Below are positions 12,683-39,777 of a stretch of 44,002 nt of DNA, in pieces. The first letter of the stretch is position 1. Each line of letters starts with the position of its first letter. This DNA is from Alphaproteobacteria bacterium. Lineage in GTDB: Bacteria; Pseudomonadota; Alphaproteobacteria; Caulobacterales; Aquidulcibacteraceae. The notes below the pieces were generated by a model that was not told where the DNA came from, searched no databases, and saw only the letters and a program-made list of their open reading frames with translations. The stretch is from NCBI GenBank assembly GCA_016124255.1, contig WGOB01000058.1:1-44002 (forward strand). The letters are read 5' to 3'. Both the position numbers and the translations under genes were made by a program.

Positions 12683-13882
<1,200 letters not shown>

Positions 13883-37891: not shown

Positions 37892-38770
37892 TCAAGCATC
37901 ATTCCCGGCGACGGCGCGGGGAAGGACGGAAAAGTTGTCGATCAGACGCGTCTTGCCGAGCCATGCCGCGGCGAGAATGCGCGCCGGCCGATCGACGCGC
38001 GGGCCAAGCACGGAGAGATCGCCCGCATCGCGCACGGCGACATAATCGATCGGATTGAAGCCCGCTTCATCCAGAGCCATCGTGGCGTCGCGCTCGATCG
38101 CGGCGATGTCGCCGCCGTATTCGAGGTCGGCGACAGCGCGTTTCAGGATCACGTTCATCTGCGTCGCAGCCGAGCGCTCATTCGCGCTCAGATACGCGTT
38201 GCGCGACGACATCGCCAGCCCGTCGCCTTCGCGCACGGTCGGACCCGCAACGACAGCGACGGGGATATCGAGATCCCGCACGAGCCGGCGGATCATCAGC
38301 AATTGCTGATAATCCTTCTCGCCGAACACCGCCGCGTCCGGCAGACATTGCAGCAAGAGCTTCGTCACCACTGTAGCGACGCCGCCGAAGAAATGCGGGC
38401 GCATCGCGCCTTCCAGATCGTCGCTGACGCCGGAAACGGTGACCGCCGTAGCGAAGCCTGGCGGGTAAATCTCCGACGCCGGCGGCGCAAACAGAAGATC
38501 GCACCCCGCCTGGCCGAGCTTGGCTGCGTCGCCCGCTTCATCGCGGGGATAGCGATCGAGATCCTCGTGCGCCGAAAATTGCTTGGGATTGACGAACAGT
38601 GAGGCGACGACGCGCTCGCCATGCATGCGCGCCAGCCGCACGAGCGAAAGGTGGCCCTCGTGCAGCGCCCCCATCGTCGGAACCAGCGCCACGCGAAGGC
38701 CCTCGCGGCGCCAGACATGAACGACGGCGCGCAGATCGGCGACGGAGCGGACAAGGACGGGATCAGGCAT
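37892..38770 (-). CDS. panC: Pantothenate synthetase
   Basis: Joins pantoate and beta-alanine with ATP in coenzyme A synthesis (292 aa). The nucleotidylyltransferase-type motifs are P-T-M-G-A-L-H-E-G-H (HxGH-like, 31-40), F-V-N-P-x-Q-F, F-G-E-K-D-Y-Q-Q-L and M-S-S-R-N-A-Y-L (KMSKS-like ATP loop). The length is normal. It is divergent from mipZ across a 140-bp region that contains a perfect CtrA box; whether panC also responds is unknown. Confidence 0.96.
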   Translation of the reverse strand: MPDPVLVRSVADLRAVVHVWRREGLRVALVPTMGALHEGHLSLVRLARMHGERVVASLFVNPKQFSAHEDLDRYPRDEAGDAAKLGQAGCDLLFAPPASEIYPPGFATAVTVSGVSDDLEGAMRPHFFGGVATVVTKLLLQCLPDAAVFGEKDYQQLLMIRRLVRDLDIPVAVVAGPTVREGDGLAMSSRNAYLSANERSAATQMNVILKRAVADLEYGGDIAAIERDATMALDEAGFNPIDYVAVRDAGDLSVLGPRVDRPARILAAAWLGKTRLIDNFSVLPRAVAGNDA

Positions 38771-38784
38771 GCATGCTCGATTGC

Positions 38785-38845
38785 GAATCCGTCATCGTTT
38801 CGTCAAGACGACTTAAGCACGCCTTAACCGGATTTGCAGAGAGTC
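38785..38845 (+). promoter_or_regulatory. CtrA box flanked by two GANTC sites upstream of mipZ
   Basis: TTAA-N7-TTAAC at 38813-38828 is an exact match to the CtrA full-site consensus, pointing towards mipZ and ending 82 bp before its GTG. GANTC (CcrM) sites lie on both sides, GAATC at 38785-38789 and GAGTC at 38841-38845. A further TTAAC half-site is at 38871-38875. In Caulobacter, mipZ is a known GcrA/GANTC-methylation target. Confidence 0.75.
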
Positions 38846-38910
38846 CGCGGCATGGTCGCGCGACGCAGCTTTAACATCATGGCGCGCGCGCATGGGCGGA
38901 GCGACGGCGC

Positions 38911-39777
38911 GTGACGATCGACATCCCGCACCCGCGCACAAGCCCCGTCTCCGAAACGCTGTCCGCGCACGTCATTGTCGTGGGCAATCAGAAGGGCGGG
39001 GCCGGCAAGTCCACGATCGCGATGCATTTGGCTGTGGCGCTGATGCGGATGGGACGGCGCACGGGCGCGCTCGATCTCGACGTCCGCCAGCGCACGCTCT
39101 CGCGCTATGTGGAGAACCGCGCCGCCACCATCGCAGCGACCGGCGCCAACATCCCCACCCCGCAAATGTTGGACGTGACGCTCAGCGCTGCGCGGCAGGG
39201 CGAAGTGGCCGACATGGAGAACGAAGCCGCGCTCGCGGTGGCGTTGAAGCGGCTTTCCGCGACGAGCGACTATATCGTGATCGACGTGCCGGCCGGCGAT
39301 TCCCACATCTCGCGCGCCGCCCACGCCGAAGCCGACACGCTGGTCACGCCGATGAACGACAGCTTCGTCGACTTCGATCTGCTTGGCGCGGTCAGCCCCA
39401 GCGCCCCGGAAGACGTGCGTCCCAGCGTTTACAGTGAATGGGTCTGGGAGTGCCGCAAGCGCAAGGCGCAGGCCTCCGGACGCGCGATCGATTGGGTCGT
39501 CCTGCGCAATCGAACCGCCACAAGCCGGATCGAAGCGAAGAACAAGCAGGCGGTCGGCGATGCGCTGAAGACGCTTTCCACCCGGATCGGGTTCCGCCTG
39601 GTGCCGGGGCTTTCCGAGCGCGTGATCTTCCGCGAGCTCTTCCTGCAGGGGTTGACGCTTCTCGACGCGGACCGCGACGGCCTCAAGATGACGCACTTGG
39701 CCGCGCGCCAGGAATTGCGCGACTTGTTCATCGCGCTGAAGCTCCCTGGCTTCGAAGGCGAGGCGCTTCGCTTTTAG
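38911..39777 (+). CDS. mipZ: Division plane positioning ATPase MipZ
   Basis: ParA/MinD-type P-loop ATPase (288 aa) that forms a bipolar gradient with ParB and inhibits FtsZ assembly away from midcell. The deviant Walker A K-G-G-A-G-K-S-T spans 28-35, and the A' motif A-L-D-L-D-V-R-Q-R-T is near 53-62. A Walker B-like I-V-I-D-V-P-A-G-D-S-H follows near 125. P-M-N-D-S-F-V-D-F-D-L-L-G and the C-terminal segment match alphaproteobacterial MipZ rather than ParA. The start is GTG with GGAG upstream; an ATG at 38892 is out of frame. The promoter carries a perfect CtrA box and GANTC sites. Confidence 0.95.
   Translation: MTIDIPHPRTSPVSETLSAHVIVVGNQKGGAGKSTIAMHLAVALMRMGRRTGALDLDVRQRTLSRYVENRAATIAATGANIPTPQMLDVTLSAARQGEVADMENEAALAVALKRLSATSDYIVIDVPAGDSHISRAAHAEADTLVTPMNDSFVDFDLLGAVSPSAPEDVRPSVYSEWVWECRKRKAQASGRAIDWVVLRNRTATSRIEAKNKQAVGDALKTLSTRIGFRLVPGLSERVIFRELFLQGLTLLDADRDGLKMTHLAARQELRDLFIALKLPGFEGEALRF

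Follow-up and report, generated by a model that had tools for sequence, protein, structure and literature searches.

The amount of the division-site ATPase MipZ matters in Caulobacter. In C. crescentus the mipZ gene, orthologous to the one considered here, has promoters P1 and P2; CtrA is described as associating with it directly and its promoter as cell-cycle regulated (PMC4287350, PMC3667746, PMC3708114). P2 is presented with a CtrA half-site at the -10 element, DnaA boxes and a conserved GANTC site. Half motifs over the -10 element are linked with repression in this organism, with mipZ P2 in that group, and full motifs whose 5' base lies near -35 to -39 are assigned to promoters that CtrA activates in predivisional cells (PMC4287350). 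GcrA binding and a role for GANTC methylation have also been described at Caulobacter mipZ (PMC3667746, PMC3708114), in agreement with the dependence on GcrA and CcrM that the initial annotation of our locus gave for this gene. That annotation further took direct CtrA control besides GcrA to be something new; the combination is already published for Caulobacter (PMC4287350, PMC3667746). Set against this work, what our locus would add is the position of the CtrA site and the predicted sign of its effect. In Hyphomonas neptunium the CtrA consensus obtained by ChIP-seq is TTAA-N7-TTAAC, and the account of mipZ in that study gives the gene as not regulated by CtrA (PMC7200025).

Three described arrangements bear on how mipZ might be translated here, and 375 leaderless mRNAs have been reported in Caulobacter (PMC4117421). 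Gene pairs that overlap as ATGA or TGATG were found to be coupled in 13 of 14 cases tested, by termination and re-initiation (PMC6728339). An engineered design in Corynebacterium joins a leaderless promoter, a short fore-cistron and a Shine–Dalgarno (SD) sequence for the second gene (PMC10367133). Leaderless small ORFs placed before a gene are known from mycobacteria (PMC4633059). Searches of open-licence papers found nothing on a mini-ORF or translational coupling at mipZ and nothing on the CtrA regulon of Terricaulis.

The stretch of DNA analysed, hereafter the window, comprises 44,002 nucleotides from a member of the Aquidulcibacteraceae, the family into which Terricaulis, Aquidulcibacter and Vitreimonas have been separated (PMC12700997). 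The features of its panC/mipZ region are listed in Table 1. The point worth following is a conserved and probably leaderless mini-cistron before mipZ, together with an apparent reversal of the CtrA sign.

Table 1. Features of the panC/mipZ intergenic region and its flanking genes (window coordinates; offsets from the first T of the CtrA site).
Feature	Positions	Strand	Remarks
panC, pantoate--beta-alanine ligase	37892–38770	-	ATG 43 nt from first T of CtrA site
GAATC (CcrM site), upstream	38785–38789		Not found here in the other three genomes of its genus
TTGACG (plus-strand CGTCAA), candidate panC -35	38801–38806	-	Beside CtrA site
CtrA full-site motif TTAA-N7-TTAAC	38813–38828	+	Predicted position -38/-39 of mipZ promoter
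Predicted -10 element, GAGAGT in the window	38839–38844	+	A27 33/33, T31 28/33
GAGTC (CcrM site)	38841–38845		Overlaps predicted -10; place shared with G002 alone among 33
20-codon mini-ORF	38852–38914	+	ATG at predicted +1 (offset 39); TGA overlaps mipZ GTG by 4 nt
Extra TTAAC half-site, within mini-ORF	38871–38875	+	1/32 genomes
mipZ, division-site ATPase	38911–39777	+	GTG start; structure match 2xj4

The CtrA site and its conservation

The plus strand of the intergenic region reads TTAAGCACGCCTTAAC at 38813-38828, an exact match to TTAA-N7-TTAAC. The initial annotation had described this site with a GANTC on either side and an additional TTAAC, and all of these elements were found where it placed them. 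In the 44-kb window this is the single occurrence of TTAA-N7-TTAA, compared with 0.01 expected from shuffles. In the whole genome (3.34 Mb) the full-site motif is rare and shows no global enrichment over its reversed control, with nine matches to TTAA-N7-TTAAC at seven distinct places and eight matches to the control pattern. Since the count does not exceed that of the control, the case for CtrA rests on the place of the site and on its conservation.

The flanking genes were identified from their products. PanC exceeds the cut-off of TIGR00018 (260.9 bits versus 212.75), and MipZ matches the solved MipZ structure 2xj4 over residues 19-286 with an E value of 2.6e-72; no NCBIfam model scored above its cut-off for the latter protein. 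The MipZ query gave matches in 61 of 61 genomes, those in G051, G055 and G059 being weak and resembling other ParA proteins, and under a stricter limit it matched in 58 of 60 genomes of the window's family. These three weak ParA-like matches and two genomes with no match (G071, G073) were dropped before counting.

We oriented 79 mipZ loci, one per genome, on a conserved G-N-x-K-G-G motif, which serves as the anchor. Counts are over 76 of them, each with at least 250 bp upstream; G015 and G027 (no anchor) and G066 (141 bases upstream) were left out. Six named loci, L130, L132, L134, L145, L161 and L163, duplicate G003, G034, G018, G036, G035 and G033, respectively, and were not added, nor were L131 and L133, whose site string and distances equal those of G072 and G077.

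Of the 76 genomes, 33 carry an exact TTAA-N7-TTAA at 80-260 bases upstream of the anchor, and all of these belong to the window's family. It is present in 4/4 genomes of genus g1, 1/1 of g2, 1/1 of g8, 3/3 of g9 and 24/27 of g11, and the three remaining g11 genomes carry the site with one mismatch. Over the same interval the exact site is absent from the other 19 genomes of the family and from all 21 genomes of four other families. In a quick MipZ tree a single clade of 38 rows (SH-aLRT 96) takes in every site-bearing row, together with g10 and g14, where no site adjoins mipZ. Alignment columns beyond the site, the -10 element and the start codon are mostly well under 1 bit. Judged by this conservation at mipZ, the CtrA motif is beyond chance. 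We note that the site string and distances of G077 (g11) are identical to those of a metagenome-assembled genome named Terricaulis.

The ctrA gene itself was not found in the window's assembly, where the best match reaches 174.8 bits against a cut-off of 350, and it scores above the cut-off in all three other members of the genus. Contig C16 of the assembly begins about 770 bp from the place that ctrA occupies in the nearest relative, and the ctrA flank of that relative matches bases 2-727 of the contig. An assembly gap is therefore the likely reason for the missing gene.

Promoter geometry, panC and the GANTC sites

Offsets are counted from the first T of the CtrA site. An A at offset 27 is found in all 33 genomes with an exact site and a T at offset 31 in 28 of them. 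These bases match the -11A and -7T expected in a -10 element and, taken with the conserved start codon described below, would place the +1 at offset 38-39. The second half-site reads TTAAC in the direction of mipZ in 33/33, and the -10 pattern lies on that side. The full site would thus stand some 38-39 bases before the predicted +1, at the position of an activator. The predicted geometry is that of promoters activated through a full motif (ctrA P2, PMC4287350; the H. neptunium motif, PMC7200025), which have the same TTAA-N7-TTAAC with its 5' base about 39 upstream of +1; the difference here is that a start codon stands at the predicted +1. On these grounds of conservation and geometry, the direct control of mipZ by CtrA that the initial annotation proposed is a well supported prediction for this lineage.

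Compared with Caulobacter P2, the window's clade has a full site at the activator position, GANTC sites without conserved places and a mini-ORF. The 260 bases that precede the anchor in the window contain no DnaA core (TCCACA/TGTGGA), and reading by eye found no GCGAC or GTCGC of a SciP half motif at 38761-38791, the -60 to -90 interval. Relative to Caulobacter, the sign of CtrA at mipZ is apparently reversed, from repressor to activator. If this is true, CtrA would turn on mipZ in this clade, whereas its placement in Caulobacter is one for turning the gene off.

The site also lies close to panC. On the panC strand a TTGAC is found within 16 bases of the CtrA site in 27 of 33 genomes, in 29 of 36 the distance between the site and a panC start codon is 40-43 bases, and in the window the panC ATG is about 30 bases from the TTGAC. 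From these distances the panC start may lie close to that gene's +1, and panC may respond to the binding of CtrA, which makes the suggested effect on panC through the shared region plausible. The gene may itself be near-leaderless, with two such starts back to back around one CtrA site. One could go further and suppose that CtrA represses here or mainly serves panC, the site lying between two promoters and shutting one of them, as has been proposed for Caulobacter ctrA P3 (PMC4287350). In 14 of the 32 g1, g8 and g11 genomes a TTAA does lie over the predicted -10 element (offsets 29-37), the place of the repressor half-site of Caulobacter mipZ P2. The uniform orientation of the TTAAC half-site and the side on which the -10 pattern lies point to mipZ instead, and the site is kept in G010, in whose locus no panC motif was found, and in G018, where the panC motif is 1,355 bases away. 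We consider repression, or service mainly to panC, unlikely and prefer activation of mipZ.

The GcrA/CcrM arm has its genes in this genome. A GcrA match of 168.9 bits is encoded, and a likely ccrM lies in the window at 12683-13867 on the minus strand, with a RAMA domain and a DPPY motif (the DPPY read by eye). A second GcrA-family match, with one stop codon inside, occurs at G000:C37:13955-14377. The window is depleted in GANTC (81 sites versus 209 expected from shuffles), as would be expected with an active CcrM. Against this density, the two GANTC sites around the CtrA site compare with 0.17 expected in their 91-base span, which is unusual for this genome, though the span was picked after looking.

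The initial annotation proposed joint control by CtrA and GcrA/CcrM through these flanking sites, in keeping with the action of GcrA and CcrM on Caulobacter mipZ (PMC3667746, PMC3708114). Among the 33 site-bearing promoters, however, a GANTC occurs between offsets -60 and +80 in just 12, at differing positions, and between -12 and +40 in three. The GAGTC over the predicted -10 element, at offset 28, is found there in the window's genome and G002 only. From -200 to -30 the site-bearing promoters hold 16 GANTC, a count that matches shuffled sequence (18.5) and exceeds the 9.4 expected from GANTC density over the remainder of these loci (P = 0.03), the one genomic background used for the comparison. 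Around the site there are 17, compared with 7.7 from the same-loci background. The excess is larger in the 43 mipZ promoters without the site, which hold 26 GANTC between 200 and 30 bases before the anchor compared with 12.0 expected from the same kind of background. GANTC is thus mildly in excess of a background that is itself depleted, and intergenic sequence generally might show the same. The GcrA/CcrM arm is weakly supported, by the presence of both genes and by this excess, and its places are unconserved; joint control through the flanking GANTC sites is in our view improbable.

Two elements were set aside as parts of the design. GANTC as a fixed-place partner of the CtrA site was rejected on account of positions that are not shared, and the extra TTAAC was rejected because it is kept at its place in one of 32 genomes.

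A mini-ORF between the predicted promoter and mipZ

In 31 of the 32 genomes of g1, g8 and g11 an ATG stands at offset 37-39, and in the other a GTG; away from this peak, no single position from offset 17 to 74 has an ATG in more than five of the 32. Across these three genera the conserved start opens a mini-ORF of 18-29 codons, which the initial annotation had not noticed. Its frame relative to mipZ, measured to the anchor and hence independent of the choice of start, is identical in 32/32. The stop of the mini-ORF and the start of mipZ overlap by 4 nt in 29 genomes and by 1 nt in two, with a 2-nt gap in one, so that an overlapping stop/start (ATGA, GTGA or TGATG) is present in 31/32; the mipZ start was sought near the mini-ORF stop, a choice on which the overlap count depends and the frame count does not. 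The tree requires no fewer than 13 changes in the spacing between the mini-ORF start and mipZ, each a multiple of 3, and at least six changes among 37, 38 and 39 in the offset from site to start. Genome G004 (g2) has the CtrA site and no start codon at the predicted +1.

Codon positions 1, 2 and 3 of the mini-ORF diverge by 0.33, 0.25 and 0.30, respectively, in 38 g11 pairs, a pattern without a signal of selection, and a functional peptide is not supported. What is kept, with no selection on the peptide, is then the start, the frame and the overlap. An open frame of such length is in itself common, with 22.6 of 32 expected by shuffling and 31 observed.

Over the same interval the mipZ frame is open in 28/32 genomes and the third frame in 19/32. 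The openness of the mipZ frame makes a coding extension of mipZ a rival: the CtrA promoter would be real and the upstream ATG no mini-cistron, translation of mipZ beginning at its own start or at an in-frame one that extends the N terminus, with the spacing by threes a trace of coding sequence. A mipZ-frame start codon does lie near the predicted +1 in 13/32 genomes, and an SD-like stretch (loose pattern) precedes the mipZ start in 24/32. Yet 19/32 genomes, the window's included, have no in-frame start near +1, and a stop closes the mipZ frame in the window. Such an extension would also leave unexplained the ATG at offset 38 ±1 and, likewise, the same position of the start of a different gene in relatives (gene X, below). 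We regard it as doubtful.

The explanation that we favour, and judge reasonably probable, is a CtrA-activated leaderless mRNA on which a mini-cistron couples translation to mipZ. In the Terricaulis-related clade phosphorylated CtrA would bind the full site at about -38/-39 and activate the mipZ promoter, and the transcript would begin at the AUG or one base before it. A ribosome would initiate on the leaderless end, translate some 20 codons, stop at the UGA that overlaps the mipZ start and re-initiate on mipZ, helped by the SD-like GGGCGG which the mini-ORF of the window contains. The synthesis of MipZ would in this way be tied to the timing of CtrA and scaled by one coupling step. Counting against this explanation are the reported absence of CtrA control over mipZ in H. 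neptunium, the failure to find ctrA in the assembly, the lack of a selection signal in the peptide, the commonness of open frames of this length, the missing start codon in G004 and the relatives, given below, that have no site at the panC promoter.

Polycysteine attenuators occur among the leaderless small ORFs of mycobacteria. The mini-ORFs described here share with those small ORFs their placement before a gene (PMC4633059), and differ in having no common amino-acid run that would suggest attenuation. With the coupled pairs of PMC6728339 they share the ATGA and TGATG overlaps and an SD-like stretch within the upstream ORF; the upstream partner is here only 18-29 codons long, its peptide is unconserved and its coupling to mipZ is putative. 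The Corynebacterium design (PMC10367133) offers the same order of elements in synthetic form, and ours, if real, would be a natural and conserved case on a division gene.

Gene X and the probable history of the promoter

In other relatives a further gene, X, which the initial annotation had not noticed, lies between panC and mipZ, in some of them with a full or one-mismatch site before it. The start of X is at offset 38-40 in 9/11 genomes of five genera and in 16/16 named loci, both sets having been picked once sites with no more than one mismatch had been noticed there; some of the loci are near copies (L154 and G045/G049). Among 34 named loci with a recognised panC, five have an exact site at that promoter, 16 have one mismatch and 13 have neither; genus g10 likewise lacks a site there, even with one mismatch allowed. 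X is a fast-changing gene of 142-252 codons (L135-L149, L154, L156 and the f2 genomes). Six X proteins were scanned: three passed the Pfam cut-off for SPOR, two just missed it and the sixth, from an f2 genome, gave no match. In all three g9 genomes mipZ itself begins with the in-frame ATG at offset 38-39.

We revised the view that the window's clade simply gained the full CtrA site at mipZ, since similar sites, often with one mismatch, precede gene X in relatives. The likeliest history has the promoter arising before it came to its present place, and X being lost from the window's clade; the lack of CtrA control over mipZ reported for H. neptunium speaks against it. The promoter would predate the arrangement, as the similar site at the same distance before the X start suggests; with X gone, the mini-ORF, or mipZ itself in g9, would now follow it. 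The direction of change, from X to mini-ORF, is one that we infer.

A broader proposal can be made, which we hold tentatively and at somewhat less than even confidence. The locus would be a natural instance of leaderless bicistronic control, in which a content-free mini-cistron, kept only for its start, its frame and its overlapping stop, sets and steadies the synthesis of an essential division regulator; the sign of CtrA would be reversed relative to Caulobacter, and the arrangement would have arisen when a SPOR-like gene was lost from the leaderless first position. If true, a core cell-cycle regulator would keep its target while the surrounding layout is rewired, and a CtrA-bound start would serve X and mipZ, mipZ alone, or a mini-cistron and mipZ in neighbouring lineages. 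It would also give the engineered leaderless bicistronic design a natural counterpart on a gene that is essential in Caulobacter.

Other full-site motifs of the genome deserve mention. An exact one at G000:C47:65248-65263 (L006) is on the strand of the gcrA match, some 240 bp upstream of it, and another adjoins flagellin-like ORFs. A third, at G000:C1:52102-52117 (L001), precedes a GGDEF-like ORF; this name and that of the flagellin-like ORFs come from reading the translations. Read on the other strand, the L001 motif has an ATG at offset 42 that opens the GGDEF-like ORF of 218 codons, and it is possibly another near-leaderless CtrA promoter.
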